This document shows, in pieces, positions 1 through 9,048 of a DNA stretch of 39,140 nucleotides. How positions within the stretch are numbered: the first letter of the stretch is position 1; every line of letters starts with the position of its first letter. Where the stretch lies: assembly GCA_026391715.1 (NCBI GenBank), contig JAPLDO010000017.1, forward strand, positions 1 to 39,140. Direction: 5' to 3'. The notes under the pieces were generated by a model. That model saw only the letters and a program-made list of their open reading frames with translations. It made no database searches and was not told the origin of the DNA. This DNA comes from Bacteroidota bacterium (GTDB taxonomy: Bacteria > Bacteroidota > Bacteroidia > Bacteroidales > FEN-979). The translations under genes and the position numbers were made by a program.

Positions 1-327
1 TTCGCTCATTTCGCCAATTTTTCCAAAGACCGAACCCTGGTGGCAATATTGCATGACGAGGTATGGCGAGCCTTCAAAATCATCGAAATGGGTGGGTTTT
101 AACAATCCCGGGTGGTTCAGGTTGAAAACCAGCGCGTACTCCTTGCTGAAAAGCTCCAGCCCTTTGTCGTCCATTCCCTGGCCGGGGGCAAAGATTTTCA
201 CGGCCACTTCAAGGTTGCCCGATTTGGTGTCTTCGGCCAGCCAAACCTGGCTGTAGCCGCCAACGCCCAACAGCTTTTTCAGGAGGTATCTGTTGGCGAA
301 TTTGTGGTTGGGTTGAAGGGGGGGCAT
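1..327 (-). CDS. Hanks-type Ser/Thr protein kinase, N-terminal fragment
   Basis: This is the first 109 codons of a eukaryotic-like Ser/Thr kinase; the rest lies beyond the left edge. The N-lobe is clear: a glycine-rich loop LLGVGGYSQVWLA at about residues 19-31, the beta-3 lysine in VAVKIF, and the hinge strand LVMQYC. It resembles the N-lobe of the kinase-FGE gene upstream (shared VWxA, KIF and LVM patterns, and similar insertions around the C-helix), so the two are probably paralogues. The start is an ATG with no clear ribosome binding site, as is usual in Bacteroidota. A 520-base gap full of repeats separates it from the upstream gene. Its C-terminal domains cannot be seen; given the paralogy, a transmembrane helix and FGE domain are plausible but inferred. 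Confidence 0.85.
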   Translation of the reverse strand, partial: MPPLQPNHKFANRYLLKKLLGVGGYSQVWLAEDTKSGNLEVAVKIFAPGQGMDDKGLELFSKEYALVFNLNHPGLLKPTHFDDFEGSPYLVMQYCHQGSVFGKIGEMSE

Positions 328-679: not shown

Positions 680-847
680 TAATATCTTTCGTATCGTCCT
701 CATGGTTATTTCTTAATCCTTTCAATCTTTTTATGCGAAATTGTCAATATTCGTTTTTCTTCATCGGCCGTTCGTCCCTCACTCCCTCTTTATGCAAAAC
801 TCATCTCTTCTTTGCTCAAAGGAATAGCCTCGACAACTTCCATTGAA

Positions 848-2794
848 CTACGGGACGAAGGCGAGGCGGAAGCCGAGAGAGATGTCGCGGTTGTCGGGGG
901 CGTTGTTGATGCGGTATTCCGGCCGGCAGAAAGAGGAAAAGAGGATCCCCGACCCGCCGCGCCCCACGTGCCTGTAACCAGATGATGGGCCTTTCGGATT
1001 GGAAGTCGGACTGCCCTGATAATCATCATACCAGTCGCTGCACCACTCCCAAACATTCCCGCTCATGTCATAAAGCCCAAGTTCATTCGGTTGCTTCTGC
1101 CCCACCGGGTGTGTTTTTGAACCAGAATTTTCACTATACCATGCCACATCTCCAACACTGTTGCTTCCGGAATAGGTATATCCATTGCTTTTATCTCCTC
1201 CTTTAGCGGCGTATTCCCATTCAGCCTCTGTTGGCAAACGGTAACTCTTTCCGGTTTTTTGGTTCAGCTTTTGTATGAACTCCTGAACATCGTTCCATGA
1301 TACGTTCTCAACCGGGCAATCATCGCATCCGGAATAGTTACTGGGATTATAGCCCATAACAGCACGCCATTGAATCTGTGTGACTTCATATTTCCCAATG
1401 TAGAAGTCACCAATGGTTACCGAATGCACCGGCCTTTCGGCATATTCACCGTCACTTGTGCCCATGTTGAAAGTGCCGCCTTGAACAAACACCATAATTT
1501 TAGCTTGTGAAGCGGCTGTGCTGTCAGCTACCCGGATACTGTCTGCAAGGCGTTTTATCTCCATTTCGTATGCACTTGGATTTCTTGGCCAAAGAATGGC
1601 AGCCAAAACACCAATAACAACCACCATCGCAACAATGATCCAAGGCGTGGGGTTATTCTTTTTGGCAGCAGGAATTTCAGGTTTACTCTGAGATTCCGGT
1701 TGAAGTTGGCTTTGTGGTATAGGTTGCGTTTCTCGTCCCTTTATCTTTATCGCTTCCTCCAAAGCGGCGTCGAAGCGATCGCGGCTAATGTTCCCATAGC
1801 GTTTGTTGAGGTCGTAAAAGAGTTGGTCTCGATGTTGGGCAGTGGGCTGGCTTTTGTGGCGTTTTACAAAGTCCGCAATTTCGCCGGCGGCAATTGCTTT
1901 TTGAAGGTTTTCGGCGCTGGATGGAGCTGGTGGCGGCTCGTCGCCGGTTCCATGTTTTGCAATGGTATCCCAAAATCCGCGGTCAAGGAATTTACGTGCA
2001 ACCTCTTCCAATTGACGAGCAGTGGGACGGTTTTGCGGGTACCGTTCCATACAGGAGTGCATGATCTCCTGAAGCCGGCGGGAGTAGGTTTCTGACAGAT
2101 CGGGCATCGGCATGCCAATCACCGCGGCATTGCCTCCCATTCCGCTCCACGGCAGAGCGCCTGTACACAACTCAAACAACATCACCCCAAGAGAAAAGAT
2201 ATCGGACGCGGGGCTGAGCTTGCGCGATTCGCTCATCTCCGGCGGACTGTACGCAAAAGTGCCGCCCTTTGTGTTAGAGGCGCGTATCAGCGAGCTTCGC
2301 ATTTTCAGCGAGATGCCAAAGTCGGCAAGCAGGTAGTTGCCGCTGTAATCAATAAGAATATTTTCCGGCTTAATGTCGAGGTGAAGCGCCGGCTTCTCCT
2401 GTGTATGCAGGTAGTTGAGAGCTCCGCACACCTGGTAGAGTATCCGTGCAATTTCCCGTTCGGGAAGTTCATTCTCCTGCTGCAACTTTTGGTAAAGCGA
2501 GCCGCCCGGCATATATGGCATCACAAGGCAGGGCGATTCATCGGCAACAAAATAATCGGTCATTTTAACGAGACGGTTGTCGTCGAAGAGGCTGGTAAGC
2601 TCAAACTCATCGCGGAACATGCTGATGAGCGAATCATCCAGTCCTTTGTCGGGCATGAATATTTTGATAGCCACGGGCATACCGCCGGCTTTTTCATCAT
2701 CGGCTTTCCATACAACCGAAAAACCGCCCGATCCGATGCGACGCTCAAGGCGGTATCGGTTATTGAGAATGGTATTGGTTTCTAATCTTAGCAT
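848..2794 (-). CDS. Receptor-like Ser/Thr kinase with C-terminal FGE-sulfatase (C-type-lectin-like fold) domain
   Basis: This 648-residue protein has three parts. A kinase domain lies at about 14-270: glycine loop GSGGFSVVW, Lys44 in AIK, a catalytic loop with HLD in place of HRD (Asp140), DFG at 158-160, and a PPE motif. A proline/glutamine-rich linker is followed by one transmembrane helix at about 384-402. An FGE-sulfatase domain fills 435-648 (GGTFNMG, VTQIQW, RLPTEAEWEYAA, GNVWEW, RGGS, GFRL). The kinase should be cytoplasmic and the FGE domain periplasmic, so it probably senses a ligand rather than making formylglycine. I chose the ATG at 2794; an earlier TTG at 2821 would add nine residues of no visible merit. 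The last 37 codons are about 66 percent G+C and look like a DGR variable region (separate entry). Neighbours are a PP2C phosphatase upstream and a kinase paralogue downstream. Confidence 0.9.
   Translation of the reverse strand: MLRLETNTILNNRYRLERRIGSGGFSVVWKADDEKAGGMPVAIKIFMPDKGLDDSLISMFRDEFELTSLFDDNRLVKMTDYFVADESPCLVMPYMPGGSLYQKLQQENELPEREIARILYQVCGALNYLHTQEKPALHLDIKPENILIDYSGNYLLADFGISLKMRSSLIRASNTKGGTFAYSPPEMSESRKLSPASDIFSLGVMLFELCTGALPWSGMGGNAAVIGMPMPDLSETYSRRLQEIMHSCMERYPQNRPTARQLEEVARKFLDRGFWDTIAKHGTGDEPPPAPSSAENLQKAIAAGEIADFVKRHKSQPTAQHRDQLFYDLNKRYGNISRDRFDAALEEAIKIKGRETQPIPQSQLQPESQSKPEIPAAKKNNPTPWIIVAMVVVIGVLAAILWPRNPSAYEMEIKRLADSIRVADSTAASQAKIMVFVQGGTFNMGTSDGEYAERPVHSVTIGDFYIGKYEVTQIQWRAVMGYNPSNYSGCDDCPVENVSWNDVQEFIQKLNQKTGKSYRLPTEAEWEYAAKGGDKSNGYTYSGSNSVGDVAWYSENSGSKTHPVGQKQPNELGLYDMSGNVWEWCSDWYDDYQGSPTSNPKGPSSGYRHVGRGGSGILFSSFCRPEYRINNAPDNRDISLGFRLAFVP
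851..961 (-). other. Candidate DGR variable region in the FGE domain
   Basis: These 37 codons run from RGGS to the stop. I count 73 G or C in 111 bases (66 percent), well above the rest of the gene by eye. They follow the usual DGR target pattern: RGGS, six variable residues (ILFSSF), CRPEYR, INNA, PDNR, DISL, GFRL. In DGR templates the variable slots are mostly AAY codons, mutated only at adenines. Here the slots read ATC, CTC, TTT, TCC, TCT, TTC, then ATC AAC AAC GCC, then GAC ATC TCT CTC. All end in C or T, as adenine substitution in AAC, AAT or ATC codons would give. The 3' end is G/C-rich, as expected for an initiation-of-homing site. One misfit is GGG where many targets have the TGG of GGSW. 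No template repeat or reverse transcriptase is present here. Confidence 0.55.
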
Positions 2795-2830
2795 AATGAG
2801 GTTATTATCTAAATATATCAATTAATCAGC

Positions 2831-2877: not shown

Positions 2878-2926
2878 AACCTTGAACCTTGAACCTTGAA
2901 CCTTGAACTTTGAACTTTGAACCTTA
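2878..2926. repeat. Seven tandem heptanucleotides ending in the PP2C stop codon
   Basis: On the plus strand the unit AACCTTG occurs four times, then AACTTTG twice, then AACCTTA, with no gap. The last three bases are the complement of the PP2C stop codon TAA. The unit is not a multiple of three, but copy-number change would fall outside the reading frame. Confidence 0.9.
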
Positions 2927-4423
2927 CTTTGGATTAATATCCGGCAAAAACCTGAAAAGCTCCTTCACCGCTTCGTTCAGGTCAGAAATACCCGTTCCGT
3001 CATAACCTTGAAGCGCGTTTTTTGCTTTATACAGCGTTTTGATATCATCGCTGGTAAGTGTGGCAGCTTTAGCTTTATTTATGCATTTACCGAGTTCATT
3101 TTTAAATGCCTTTGAGAAGTTGTCCTCCTTTGGCGGTTTATAACCATTTTTTACTTTAATAAGGGCGTCAAGTGTTGGCTTATATTTCTCAGTCGTATTT
3201 TCGGCTTTCGCTTTTACCACCGATGGTTTGCTTAATGAATTGCCGGTATTTGCCTGTTTTTTCTCAGCTTTCGCATCTTTCTCATCAGCTTCCGGTGTTT
3301 TCTCACGGGCGTCGGAATTATTGGGTTTTGCATTGTTTTCCTTCGGAATGGGTTTGACTTTTTGAATGACCGAATCTCCCTTTTTGGTTGAATTTGCCTT
3401 GTCGCCCTTGAAAAGACCAATAATCGTTGGCCGGTTTTGCCAGGCAATAAGTCCAAGCAAAATGACAATGACTGCGAGAAGCAGGATTTTACCGCGCATG
3501 GCGTTTTTTTTTTGCCGGGGAACTGGGGCGTTCACTGCATCATTTGAGGCGGCTGCCTGTTTGCCATGTGTTGCCGCCGGTCTCGGTTCCGGAGGAAGTG
3601 GGCTGTCAACATTGGTAACATGGGCAAGCAGTACTGTGATGTTATCGTTGCCTCCGGCTTTGTTGGCTTCGTCAATAAGCGCTCTGGCAGCGTCGGCAGC
3701 GGTGGGGTTGCCGCTCATAACCAACTCGATATTACTGTCGGTTACCATTCCATTCAGTCCATCGGAACAAATAAGTATTGCGTCGTCACTCTGAATGTTA
3801 TACGTTGTATAGCCGGGATTTGGCGGTCTTTTGGCTTCGCCAAGACTCTGTGTTATGATGTTGCTTTGCGGATGATAGAAAGCCTGCTCAGCAGTTATTT
3901 TGCCGGCGTCAACCAGTTCCTGAACATAAGAATGGTCATGAGAAAGCTGTATCAGCCCCGACTTATTGTGCAGATAAAGCCGGCTGTCGCCAACCCAGGT
4001 AATGAACGCTTTGTTTTTGATAACCCATGCAACCACAAGCGTAGTTCCCATGCCTTCGGTTTCGGGAAACTGTTTCTCGTGATCAATAAGGTCTTTTTGC
4101 GCGGCTTTAACCGATTCGATAAGAATGGATTTTACTGCGGCTTCCTTATCGGGCATTGCCTGTGCAATTTGCTGCTGAATAAAGGTTTTAACGGATTCAA
4201 CTGCAATTTTGGACGCGACTTCTCCGGCATTTGTTCCGCCCATGCCATCGGCTACAATCAGCAGCGATCCTTTTTCAGAAAGCCCTTTGACTTCCCTTGA
4301 ATCGAAAAAAACCCATTCGCCGCTTTCCAGGTCGGGGATGTAGCTATGATAATCTTCGTTGTGGTCGCGCTCCATTCCTCTGTCGGTGAGCGCAATTATC
4401 TGTAAATCGGTTTTTGTTGCCAT
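2924..4423 (-). CDS. PP2C-family Ser/Thr phosphatase with membrane anchor
   Basis: A PPM/PP2C metal-dependent phosphatase of 499 residues, expected to reverse the phosphorylation made by the neighbouring kinases. The catalytic domain spans about 8-268 with its motifs in order: DRG at 14-16, NED near 22-24, ADGMGG at 58-63, GTT at 126-128, GDSR at 145-148, SDGL at 220-223 and GGNDNIT at 257-263. All metal-binding aspartates appear to be present. A proline-rich linker leads to one transmembrane helix at about 312-329, followed by a Lys/Glu-rich, low-complexity tail and a helical C-terminal segment of unknown role, probably periplasmic. The start is an ATG. The gap to the upstream gene is 122 bases and holds a palindromic repeat; the gap downstream holds the heptanucleotide repeat. 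Confidence 0.93.
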   Translation of the reverse strand: MATKTDLQIIALTDRGMERDHNEDYHSYIPDLESGEWVFFDSREVKGLSEKGSLLIVADGMGGTNAGEVASKIAVESVKTFIQQQIAQAMPDKEAAVKSILIESVKAAQKDLIDHEKQFPETEGMGTTLVVAWVIKNKAFITWVGDSRLYLHNKSGLIQLSHDHSYVQELVDAGKITAEQAFYHPQSNIITQSLGEAKRPPNPGYTTYNIQSDDAILICSDGLNGMVTDSNIELVMSGNPTAADAARALIDEANKAGGNDNITVLLAHVTNVDSPLPPEPRPAATHGKQAAASNDAVNAPVPRQKKNAMRGKILLLAVIVILLGLIAWQNRPTIIGLFKGDKANSTKKGDSVIQKVKPIPKENNAKPNNSDAREKTPEADEKDAKAEKKQANTGNSLSKPSVVKAKAENTTEKYKPTLDALIKVKNGYKPPKEDNFSKAFKNELGKCINKAKAATLTSDDIKTLYKAKNALQGYDGTGISDLNEAVKELFRFLPDINPK

Positions 4424-5439: not shown

Positions 5440-6939
5440 TTATTGCTGAATAGCTGAGAGAGGAACTATCATACCTGTATTCTCGCCTGCGCCCGCTGAA
5501 ACAATACCAATGGCATAGTATTTTGCTTCGGCTTCATTGAATACGAATACAGGTCCGCCGGAATTGCCATGTTCAAAATTCCTGTCGGTAACCAGAATAT
5601 ATCCGTTTTGTAATTGTGTTGAAGAAACGATGCAACTGCCATATATCGGAGAAATATTGGTAGGCGAGCTTGCGCCCAGCCCGAGGGGATATCCAAGAAT
5701 ATGCAGTTTCTGTTGTTGCTTAAGAATGGCAGAAATATCGGAATATGCTGAGATGCCTCCCTGTTTGCCTGCATTGGTAAAAGCCCAGTCGTCGGCGCTC
5801 AAATGAGCTACCCTAAACAAAACAGGCGAGCCGTCTTCATCTGTTTCTGTCTTTATTTCATCTGCAAACCGGTTGCATTTAAAATTTGAAGTGGTGAATG
5901 AAATTGTAGAGCCATTGGGAGAATAAGCGGTAATGAAAGCTGTTACGCTGCCTCCGTTTGAAGCTACGCTATTGAGCAAAAGTCCGGTTTCATCTTCAGA
6001 ATTGATGAAGAACCAAGGTTCAACCACATGGCGGGCTGTTATAAATCTACCATCGTTCAGCAGGAATCCGGTGCCACTCCATTTGTAATCTATCTCTTTC
6101 TTTTTGCCGTTATATTCAGCCACCAATTTGTCAACAAACATGAAATATACATCTGGAAAAAGGCTGTTCATGTTCATTGATGAAGGAACAGAATTCCCGG
6201 TTGTTCCGCCTGCAGGACCGCTGCTGGCGCTCTTGGCGAGTTGCGCCATTTGCGATTCGAGCCGGCGGCGCGCATCATCGCTTTTTTTAACCTGGCGCTG
6301 AAGTGAGTCAACATCTCCTTTGAAATTTTTGGCAGTTTCAAACAATTCCTTGTTTTTTGCCACCAGATCTTTAATCTGGGTTTGACCCTGATACAGGAAA
6401 TATCCGGCAATCAACATCCCCAGAAGAAAAACAGCAGATAGCGCCATGATAGCCTTTTTATATGGTTTAAGCGCCTGCTGCCTGAAAAGGCTGAGCCTGC
6501 GCGAAAGTCCGATAGATTTAACGCCAGGATTGGCTGGAACAAGAAATCCGATTTTTGGTCCTTCCATCGAAAGTTGAATTTCATCGCCATTCTGTAGAAA
6601 CCATTGGTTTTTAATCGGGCGACCGTTGATTAGCGTTGGATTTGAAGCCGACAACTGCTTTAGAACCCAGTTATTGCCTTCGCGTGCAATGGCTGCATGA
6701 CGCCGGCTTACCGTCGGAAACATATCGCCAAACTGAACCTGGCATTTTGGGTCGCGCCCCAGTTCAATATAGTCAATGATTATTTCCTGTATTTGTCCTG
6801 CCCTGTAACGGTCGGATGTTACCTTGTGTTCCAGAATAAAATAGGTTCTGCCACCGCCGCCAAAAATGGACTTTACGCCGGCGCCTATTGATTTTGAGAA
6901 TTGGTTGTTCTCCTTATGCTCAGTTTCTCTCGTTGCCAT
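5440..6939 (-). CDS. FHA domain, transmembrane helix and trypsin-like serine protease fusion
   Basis: The 499-residue protein joins a phosphothreonine-reading domain to a protease. An FHA domain covers about 32-135 (LGR at 60-62, SRRHA at 78-82, NGRPI near 105). One transmembrane helix lies at about 162-183, followed by a heptad-like coiled coil (185-235) and a Gly/Ser linker. The protease domain from about 260 has a likely catalytic triad: His304 in TARHVV, Asp384 in ADDW (Asp383 also possible) and Ser460 in GNSGGP. The expected topology puts FHA in the cytoplasm and the protease in the periplasm, so phosphorylation inside could control proteolysis outside. It starts 46 bases after the kinase-FHA gene. 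Single-protein fusions of this kind are uncommon in my experience; the functional link is inferred. Confidence 0.88.
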   Translation of the reverse strand: MATRETEHKENNQFSKSIGAGVKSIFGGGGRTYFILEHKVTSDRYRAGQIQEIIIDYIELGRDPKCQVQFGDMFPTVSRRHAAIAREGNNWVLKQLSASNPTLINGRPIKNQWFLQNGDEIQLSMEGPKIGFLVPANPGVKSIGLSRRLSLFRQQALKPYKKAIMALSAVFLLGMLIAGYFLYQGQTQIKDLVAKNKELFETAKNFKGDVDSLQRQVKKSDDARRRLESQMAQLAKSASSGPAGGTTGNSVPSSMNMNSLFPDVYFMFVDKLVAEYNGKKKEIDYKWSGTGFLLNDGRFITARHVVEPWFFINSEDETGLLLNSVASNGGSVTAFITAYSPNGSTISFTTSNFKCNRFADEIKTETDEDGSPVLFRVAHLSADDWAFTNAGKQGGISAYSDISAILKQQQKLHILGYPLGLGASSPTNISPIYGSCIVSSTQLQNGYILVTDRNFEHGNSGGPVFVFNEAEAKYYAIGIVSAGAGENTGMIVPLSAIQQ

Positions 6940-6985: not shown

Positions 6986-8347
6986 CTAATAGTCAGCGTT
7001 TAAATTGTTCCGACGGCGGGAATCGTTTTTAACAACTTTCAAGGTAACATCGCCGATGGTGATAATATCATCGGGACAAAGCATTCTTCGTTCTCCCGTA
7101 TTTAATTTTTCAGCATTTATGAAAGTGCCGTTAAGCGATGGTTTCCATTGGCGCATAGCGTTGTTCCACTGCCCATCAAGAATATAATAGCCGGGTGAAT
7201 TGCCCGATGTTTTTTCAATAGTTGAATGTTGCCGCGATATATAGGTGGTAGTCTCCTCTTTAATTTCGACAATATTCCGGGCGTCAGGGTCGGCGCGTCC
7301 AATCTTAATCACACCTTCTTCGTCATTGCATAAGTCGCTCAGGTGGTAAGGTCTTCCATATTCTTCGCCCTGCATAATCAGTAAACTCAGCGTATGTGTG
7401 TAGAAGTTAAATGATATATTTCTGTTTTCAACAGGCTTTCCGAGTAATGATAAAATCTCATTGGTACTTTGAAAACGGTTTTTGTAACTGGGCTGCAACG
7501 ATTTGTTGAATATTGTATCCCATTCTGACGGCAACCTGCAGTTGTATTTTTTAATATCAATAATCCTGCCCTCTTTAACATTGCGGTTGTAATTTGCCAG
7601 GTCAGCGTCGGTTTCGAGCGAACCAAATGGAAAGTGTCCGCTGAAAACCTCATAAAACATGGTGCCAAATGCAAAAATGTCAATGGTGGGCAGAACAGTC
7701 ACGTGCATATCTGTCGGATTGAGCTGTTCGGGCGGCATATAGGCAATAGTTCCGAAAATTTCAGTAGGCTTGTTGAATATATTCCGCCTGGTCATGCGCA
7801 TGCTCTTATGACCTGAAATGCCAAAGTCGGTAAGTCTGGCTCTCTGATCGGTTGTAAGAAGGACATTGTCGGGCTTAAGATCGCGATGAACTTTCCCGTT
7901 GCTGTGAAGGTCGTTTAGCCCCATCAATACTTCATGAGCCCAGCGCCTGACTGTTTCGTAAGGTGTGTTCTTACCAATAACTGCCCTGATATCGCCGCCG
8001 GCGCAAAAATCCATTACAATATAGGGGTTGCCGCAGGTTTTGCCAAAGTCCCAGGAATGGACAAGATATTCGCTTGCAATTTTTCCGGTATCATATTCCA
8101 TTCTGAAGCGCTGTAGTATCCCTTTGCGTTCCTCTTCGTAAGGAATCTTGAACAGGTTGAGCAATTTAAGCGCTTTTATCTGACCATTACGCTGGTCGGC
8201 GACCTTAAAAACGCTGCCGAATGCGCCTTCGCCAAGCCGTTTTTCTATGCGGTATTGGTCAATAGTATCGCCTTTTTCCGGGTTGCATGCAAAAGGTATT
8301 TCATAGAAATCCTTCCCTGAAGACCCATCGGGAGAATTTGTTTCCAT
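6986..8347 (-). CDS. Ser/Thr protein kinase with C-terminal FHA domain
   Basis: A 453-residue soluble kinase. The kinase domain spans about 33-303: glycine loop LGEGAFGSVF, Lys61 in ALKLL, HRDLKPDN with Asp156, DFG at 174-176 and MPPEQ. Unlike the kinase-FGE protein it is a classic RD kinase. An FHA domain occupies about 340-442 (IGR at 349-351, SRQH at 371-374, NGTFIN from 406), so it can read phosphothreonine on itself or partners. No transmembrane helix or signal peptide is seen. The gene lies 11 bases after the zinc-ribbon/FHA gene and is almost surely cotranscribed with it. It is the best candidate for the main cytoplasmic kinase of the cluster. Confidence 0.93.
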   Translation of the reverse strand: METNSPDGSSGKDFYEIPFACNPEKGDTIDQYRIEKRLGEGAFGSVFKVADQRNGQIKALKLLNLFKIPYEEERKGILQRFRMEYDTGKIASEYLVHSWDFGKTCGNPYIVMDFCAGGDIRAVIGKNTPYETVRRWAHEVLMGLNDLHSNGKVHRDLKPDNVLLTTDQRARLTDFGISGHKSMRMTRRNIFNKPTEIFGTIAYMPPEQLNPTDMHVTVLPTIDIFAFGTMFYEVFSGHFPFGSLETDADLANYNRNVKEGRIIDIKKYNCRLPSEWDTIFNKSLQPSYKNRFQSTNEILSLLGKPVENRNISFNFYTHTLSLLIMQGEEYGRPYHLSDLCNDEEGVIKIGRADPDARNIVEIKEETTTYISRQHSTIEKTSGNSPGYYILDGQWNNAMRQWKPSLNGTFINAEKLNTGERRMLCPDDIITIGDVTLKVVKNDSRRRNNLNADY

Positions 8348-8358
8348 AAAAAATGAAT

Positions 8359-9048
8359 TTACGCATCAAATTCAAATCGTGAATCTCCCAAAAGAATAAT
8401 GTCTCCTTTTTTTATTTCCACCGGTGAGCCAGGTCTGATAAATGTTGTTTGTAAATTACTCTTATCCGTAATAAACCATTTCCCCTCTTTGTTGAAAATA
8501 ACCGCCTGTTGATTGCTTGTAATGGTGGAATTGTTTGGAATTGTATTGTCCCGGTTGAGGATTACCTTCTCACCGCTATAATCCAATGTTTGTTTTACCT
8601 GGTTTTCAGTTGTCAGTTGTTTCAATGAAAACTTCTGTGAATTTCTTTTTGACCAGGGCGTTTCAGTTTCCATCCTTCCGGGAGGCGTTGTTTTCAGAGG
8701 ATCGCCGCCCGTCTTTCTGTTTCCTCTGTTTTCATCTTCACTATCATTGTTCTTCAGAGGTTTTTTACAACTGATGCACTTTATCGCGCCAGCGGAATTC
8801 GGGTAACCGCAAAACGGGCATGAAAAGGCGGCGCCGGCTGGCGCGCCCGATTTTACAGATTCATTCGGCGCATCAATATAAGGACCCGAAGGGCGGGCGC
8901 CTTTGATGGTTTCATTCAAATTTCCTGATGAAGCGTCAGGCGCTCCATGATTGGTTTCCTGAACCACAGAGCCTTTTTGAGGGGCATTGCACTTTTCACA
9001 GCGCATTGACGTCGAGGGATTGTCCCATCCACAGTTGTTACATCTCAT
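8359..9048 (-). CDS. Double zinc-ribbon protein with C-terminal FHA-like domain
   Basis: A 229-residue cytoplasmic protein, first gene of the minus-strand cluster. Two short zinc ribbons are visible as CxxC pairs: Cys3/Cys6 with Cys17/Cys20, and Cys77/Cys80 with Cys91/Cys94. Between and after them is disordered, Gly/Pro/Ser-rich sequence with possible phosphorylation sites. The last 75 residues (VILNRDNTIPNNSTI...GDIILLGDSRFEF) have the strand pattern of an FHA domain, including a gap-strand near ITDKSN and a GD-I-LLG close, though the arginine and SRxH signature are weak. It may be an adaptor or kinase substrate that recruits the FHA proteins encoded just downstream. Confidence 0.82.
   Translation of the reverse strand: MRCNNCGWDNPSTSMRCEKCNAPQKGSVVQETNHGAPDASSGNLNETIKGARPSGPYIDAPNESVKSGAPAGAAFSCPFCGYPNSAGAIKCISCKKPLKNNDSEDENRGNRKTGGDPLKTTPPGRMETETPWSKRNSQKFSLKQLTTENQVKQTLDYSGEKVILNRDNTIPNNSTITSNQQAVIFNKEGKWFITDKSNLQTTFIRPGSPVEIKKGDIILLGDSRFEFDA

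Follow-up and report, generated by a model that had tools for sequence, protein, structure and literature searches.

The gene at 848..2821 on the minus strand of the window (the whole stretch of DNA analyzed, 39,140 nucleotides of contig JAPLDO010000017.1 from a Bacteroidota bacterium) very probably codes for a receptor kinase in the membrane, with an FGE/lectin-fold domain at its C-terminus that is targeted remotely (in trans) by a diversity generating retroelement (DGR) on another contig of the same genome, C225. Established at the level of sequence are a template repeat (TR), a DGR-type reverse transcriptase (RT), an A-biased match between that template and the end of the gene, a cognate element past the stop codon, and the order of kinase, transmembrane (TM) helix and FGE domain. 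The original prediction had placed a DGR variable region at the 3' end of this kinase-FGE gene, and both the A-biased match to the C225 template and the target-site element shared with it bear this out. All window features given below lie on the minus strand.

Layout and surroundings of the kinase gene

The gene, delimited by its ORF, Pfam matches and translation, encodes 657 aa from a listed TTG start, with an in-frame ATG at residue 10. The N-terminal part is a Ser/Thr protein kinase domain (residues 23-271, 2009..2755; PF00069, E 7.2e-48), and VAIK, HLDIKPEN and DFG, motifs with known roles in kinases, can all be read from the translation. A TM helix had been proposed between the kinase and FGE domains, and hydropathy finds one strongly hydrophobic stretch there, at about residues 389-415, within which a helix is predicted at residues 392-410 (1592..1648; Kyte-Doolittle 19-residue mean 2.65). 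The linker reaches 3.0 in a paralog on contig C147 and 2.40 in a kinase-FGE gene of locus L118, and only 1.09 in that of L084. The layout is thus of the receptor type, with a single predicted TM helix between kinase and FGE sensor; judging from that one hydrophobic segment, the FGE side would face the periplasm and the kinase would lie inside.

The FGE/C-type-lectin-fold domain occupies residues 441-654 (860..1501; FGE-sulfatase PF03781, E 3.1e-52). A model of it was built from an alignment of 26 DGR-target FGE domains, the window's included (mean pLDDT 84.8), for which the top solved structure by Foldseek is T. denticola TvpA (2y3c; TM 0.86 by query length). A sequence search likewise gives T. 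denticola variable protein 1, 2y3c, as the closest solved structure (E 5.4e-40). In an alignment to the FGE enzyme 6muj, one of its two cysteines is matched in the window; we take these two to be the catalytic pair of formylglycine-generating enzyme, and since just one is present, the domain is probably not an active enzyme.

The expected adjacent PP2C phosphatase and FHA genes are confirmed by Pfam matches: a PP2C-type phosphatase gene (2924..4423) is followed by genes for an FHA and trypsin-like protein (5440..6939), a kinase and FHA protein (6986..8347) and a zinc ribbon and FHA protein (8359..9048). At the other side, the contig ends in the start of a neighboring kinase gene (1..327; Pfam). 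A stretch of 118 nt at this end recurs identically, and in the right orientation, where contig C147 begins, which makes the two contigs probable neighbors in a kinase array, with some doubt on the adjacency, as similar kinase copies within C147 match up to 97% over the same overlap. C147 carries a second kinase-TM-FGE gene with a variable repeat (VR). The two genes have the same residue at 143 of 178 FGE codons before the VR, versus 2 of the 12 variable slots inside it.

The variable repeat and its template

The genome (5.02 Mb in 256 draft contigs, 99% complete) holds five RT matches above the Pfam cut-off. Those on C149 and C225 adjoin short AAC-rich, FGE-like copies and FGE genes. The C225 RT has 8ub7, which we take to be the BPP-1 DGR enzyme, as its best solved relative (E 3.9e-41), with group II RTs far weaker (1.3e-13); no DGR-specific RT model in NCBIfam reaches its cut-off for this protein. 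A protein with an HRDC domain precedes it, and most of the named RT relatives come from Bacteroidota MAGs, RTs being known to move between lineages. The cis VR of C225 is changed from its TR at 13/27 A and 0/87 non-A positions, and three VRs of C149 from their own TR at 15-18/31 A and 0/83 non-A positions; the fourth (C149d), which contains an indel close to its end, was omitted from these counts. Judged on these features, C149 and C225 are clear DGRs of FGE type, each with an RT and a TR. The C225 TR is more than 35 kb from both ends of its contig, and its RT and the window target are on different contigs; therefore, the two are not close.

The remaining RTs were set aside as the machine acting on the window gene: the C92 RT because its neighbors look, by eye, like cas genes, and the C169 RTs because their TR/VR belong to another lectin type (by eye). 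As separate observations, the C92 RT gene (L034) stands amid genes resembling cas6 and cas1/cas2, and C169 (L039, C169:1-6000) is a DGR-like locus with two RTs whose other-lectin-type TR/VR pair has 20 mismatches, all at A. A kinase with a C-terminal Fib_succ_major-like lectin domain (by eye), the type found at the C169 DGR, is encoded at L035:3110-4987 (+). The C149 DGR (L032, C149:190000-209500) has four FGE-type targets, of which the only one scanned singly (L032 13010-14488) is a caspase (Peptidase_C14)-FGE protein. Beside the C225 DGR is an LRR-ROC-COR-TIR gene (L033:1358-4021, minus strand) that resembles NLR-type defence genes.

The VR of the window gene runs from RGGS to the stop (848..961) and is identical to the C225 TR at 91 of 114 nt. 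Its placement at 851-961, its frame and its high G+C content were as predicted, the last being 65.8%, compared with 50.5% over the gene and 43.4% over the window. Changes fall on 14/27 template A and 9/87 non-A positions (Fisher p 1.6e-5). Compared to the same TR, the FGE genes C8 and C175, taken as controls, are changed at 17/27 and 18/27 A, and at 30/87 and 45/87 non-A positions. C149 was rejected as donor, 26 of 83 non-A positions being different from the window. The agreement with C225 is graded along the repeat. All nine non-A differences fall within the first 45 nt (917..961), and the last 69 nt (848..916) are changed at 7/19 A and at no other letter. This division was picked after viewing the alignment and then redone as a run-length test, in which random placement of the nine non-A mismatches yields so long a run free of them with p = 0.0002. 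Mismatches at template A make up 14/23 (61%) over the whole VR and 7/7 in the last 69 nt; TR/VR pairs usually have at least 75% of their mismatches at A, according to passages of a DGR survey (PMC8144416).

The predicted A-only derivation of the variable slots from AAC, AAT or ATC holds for all 12, which end in C or T, are changed relative to the C225 TR only at template A, and encode a different amino acid in 8 of 12. The template motif proposed for DISL, NNNI, was wrong; the real template reads NNNL (AAC AAC AAT CTC). As had been pointed out, GGG in place of the usual Trp codon does not fit A-only change, but it is one of the nine non-A differences of the first 45 nt rather than a lone exception. 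The idea that a genome search would turn up a copy beside a DGR RT fared similarly: A-rich templates lie beside two RTs and one of them matches, but the window copy is not A-only throughout, as non-A letters are changed too in its first 45 nt. Over the last ten codons (LGFRLAFVP-stop), the DNA matches the C225 TR letter for letter. The C149 TR encodes the same residues but one, yet its DNA differs by 11 nt there; protein selection therefore does not explain the DNA identity to C225.

This last comparison bears on the reading that the gene simply has an ordinary FGE-like sensory domain with normal divergence, its motif match reflecting fold conservation. Parts of the motif are indeed invariant across the 26 aligned FGE domains (the GG of RGG, the Cys and the G.R of GFR), but the identical synonymous codons common to window and TR would be left unexplained, as would the reverse-complement flank described below, and we find this reading barely credible. 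Nearly as improbable is gene conversion between FGE paralogs as the source of the shared 3' ends, with no part for a DGR. The 17 FGE-like matches in the genome would offer partners, but conversion would not spare every non-A letter while altering A, and in the 3' part both the window and C225 VRs differ from the TR at A only.

Two other readings accept a DGR and address the 5' part. One is that the gene is a relic, homed upon in the past and now decaying without being rewritten. The nine non-A differences, including loss of the near-invariant Trp (TGG to GGG), favor it, as does the C147 VR, in which non-A differences are more numerous (15/87, with 18/27 A changed). C147 fits A-only change more poorly than the window does, because 4 of its 12 slots also change at the third base, e.g., AAT to CAA. 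Decay should, however, scatter non-A changes along the whole repeat, whereas the last 69 nt have none (7/19 A differ, at the p given above), and the element beyond the stop codon remains well preserved; a relic seems to us unlikely. The other is a different donor TR, lost from the assembly or genome, with a 3' end resembling that of the C225 TR and a different 5' part. Two residues past the VR cysteine, Pro is found in the window as well as in C147, in place of the Arg encoded by the C225 TR, and the assembly is a draft in 256 contigs. Against this, when a 77-nt query from the C225 TR 3' end was run against the entire assembly, no third TR of this type turned up, and the element that follows the stop codon indicates C225, which leaves a lost donor doubtful. 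Under the preferred reading, with C225 as donor, the gradient would reflect recurrent rounds of homing that share a 3' anchor and vary in where they end on the 5' side. This reading is helped by a report on BPP-1, in passages of which 5' integration into a truncated VR is described as possible at cryptic sites inside it (PMC3240598).

At slot 12, the window, C147 and C225 VRs have the same double change, AAT to TCT. Such agreement exceeds the expectation from free A-mutagenesis and may stem from selection for Ser or from shared history.

An inverted template flank past the repeat

Directly past the stop codon (814..847) lies a target-site element of about 33 nt matching the C225 TR 3' flank in reverse complement. 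The inverted match scores 44 to the C225 TR and 28 to the C149 TR; for the former the maximum in 1000 shuffles was 30. Its 14-mer core, CTATTCCTTTGAGC, has five exact copies in the genome, namely at the C225 TR, the C225 VR, the window, C147 and one unrelated gene, which resembles a LytTR response regulator. The C149 version of the tag (one base free) also has five exact copies, at its TR and four VRs. By this evidence, the window has an IMH-like target site past its VR, in the form of an inverted TR flank. The thought that A-mutagenesis ran on beyond the stop codon was dropped, as the flank aligns inverted and not direct. A strong self-hairpin was dropped too: among six folded flanks, only those of the window and C147 beat most shuffles, and these were matched by 12/200 and 8/200 shuffles, indicating a weak hairpin. 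Separately, a 518-aa ORF on C8 (L036, about 1-1560) has an FGE end, a VR-like tail and its own tag, ATACCGGTTTTGAGC. A cognate TR for ATACCGGTTTTGAGC was not found in the genome, where two one-mismatch places looked unrelated; from its sequence, the C8 gene would be either an orphan target or one that has lost its TR.

The generality of the inverted flank was surveyed in loci from an RT-alignment search of one genome and one viral collection (53 and 9 loci). A script detected TR/VR repeats with A bias in 38 of those 53 genome-collection loci, which is an undercount because it missed the real C225 pair. The 58 pairs compared are 55 from the script plus C225, the window and C147 added by hand, the latter two paired with the C225 TR; the surveyed loci include three with near-identical flanks (L064, L075 and L076). 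The inverted score exceeds the direct one in 48/58 pairs, with medians of 37 and 14. Mismatched loci as control gave a median of 14 and a 95th percentile of 22, a value surpassed by 39/58 true pairs. Where script pairs score 26 or more (36 of them), the match is mostly about 30 nt long, and in 29 it starts at the first base past the TR core. The 19 of 58 pairs without a mirror flank consist of 11 from the genome collection, 5 viral ones and 3 with more distant RTs (L039, L068 and L070). No tag was found in ten phage/plasmid loci (L157-L166), none having p under 0.05. BPP-1 (L133) was ambiguous, with p 0.011 for one choice of flank and 0/300 shuffles for another. In that locus (TR 2887-3020, VR 3443-3576), a reverse-complement match is seen between the TR spacer and the VR hairpin region. 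We did not count this weak positive, given that the stem sequence can vary (PMC3240598) and that, in passages of a study of BPP-1, cDNA is primed from spacer RNA (PMC12875486); these two points also speak against a priming role of the tag as a general rule. An HRDC-like accessory ORF occurs in 56/63 scanned loci and is missing from 4/5 plasmid loci. In the DGR literature on inverted repeats, hairpins and target sites, as far as the passages covered extend (most subscription journals and all of bioRxiv fall outside), there is no mention of a TR flank inverted relative to the VR flank.

A set of 42 targets was assembled from 55 ORFs by removing 16 (cut, mis-framed or of another DGR type) and adding 3 from this genome. 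All 42 have FGE, partly through selection. Among the best 25 of 34 domain families, the partners are caspase (7), protein kinase (4), NACHT (3) and TIR (2), with a weak nSTAND3 match in 5/42 (best E 5.8e-6). The four kinase targets, by single scans, are those of the window, C147, L084 and L118. L118, from a Muribaculaceae MAG, has a kinase-TM-FGE gene near its own RT, with 23/24 TR/VR mismatches at A; its HRDC hits are in pieces. The kinase-FGE gene of L084, from a Lentisphaerae MAG, has 17/18 mismatches at A and no strong TM segment. These two TR/VR pairs indicate that in other genomes kinase-FGE genes serve as DGR targets in cis. Matches at a strict cut-off appeared in one of 18 other genomes of the same genus and cover the FGE part only. 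In that genome (G015), four FGE genes (L149, L151, L153 and L155) have VR-like tails and other N-terminal regions, with no kinase in the match; two of these regions look like PEGA repeats by eye.

Proposed mechanism and relation to known systems

We propose that the C225 RT, probably with the HRDC accessory protein, would copy the TR into cDNA with errors at A. This cDNA would take the place of the VR's 3' end, with the element at 814-847 as guide. We infer that homing is still happening, and that ligand binding would switch the kinase. Cells or lineages would then differ in the ligand face of the kinase outside the membrane while having one kinase output inside, which would act beside the PP2C phosphatase and the FHA readers. 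If the sensing face of a membrane kinase is rewritten in this way, it amounts to a receptor repertoire wired to a phosphorylation pathway.

For the DGR clade accompanied by HRDC proteins, the tag may serve in addressing, in pairing or priming of the TR RNA, and in telling donor from recipient by orientation, a reading whose chances of being right or wrong we judge to be balanced. With about 33 nt after the VR core being the reverse complement of about 33 nt after the TR core, TR RNA may base-pair to the sense strand downstream of its own VR, and more poorly at the VRs of the second DGR. A 3' end left free at ...TTTGAGC would be positioned at the TR core's end, the point from which copying has to begin. 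Donor and recipient would be told apart by the tag's orientation, and the tag would account for how one DGR reaches two kinase genes on different contigs and does not cross with the second DGR. The route by which DGR cDNA gets into its target is described as incompletely understood in passages of PMC12875486; a reverse-complement tag that is common to TR and VR and distinct for each FGE-type DGR in one cell makes that question testable. The tag also offers a route to remote targets, which could not be detected in a survey limited to neighboring VRs (PMC8144416, in part).

As far as the consulted parts of the published accounts go, the closest known systems are cyanobacterial. There, kinases with a CLec domain, dispersed ones included, are the most common DGR target type and, as in the window, combine an N-terminal Ser/Thr kinase with a VR-bearing lectin-fold C-terminus (PMC7517822). 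Remote VRs in that work have at least 50% identity; the window VR has 80% to the C225 TR (91/114). The cyanobacterial proteins are mostly predicted to be cytosolic, some with TM segments, whereas the window protein has its predicted TM helix between kinase and FGE. The window also differs in probably lying outside the cyanobacteria and in having an HRDC accessory gene beside the RT.

The T. denticola DGR and its TvpA (PMC4891356; 2y3c) share the HRDC accessory, one core TR with remote targets, and the FGE-like fold. Its targets include lipoproteins, and the passages describing them name no kinase; they do report a remote VR whose fit to the resident template is poorer than to one of another type (PMC4891356). 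The putative antigen sensors of Thiohalocapsa likewise join a DGR-target CLec/FGE domain to STAND, TIR, CHAT or protein kinase domains (PMC10907252). Targets in multicellular bacteria are predicted there on either side of the membrane, and the Thiohalocapsa systems are mainly STAND plus MoxR, compared with a kinase array with PP2C and FHA genes in the window (PMC10907252, in the parts consulted). With BPP-1, whose IMH is accompanied by a hairpin/cruciform, the window has in common a short element past the VR that marks the recipient site. In the portions of PMC3240598 consulted, the BPP-1 stem is self-complementary and variable in sequence, while the window element is the reverse complement of a TR flank with a weak self-fold. 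The window gene thus joins the known kinase-CLec kind of target, with a receptor-type layout, and the mirror tag is a variant feature.
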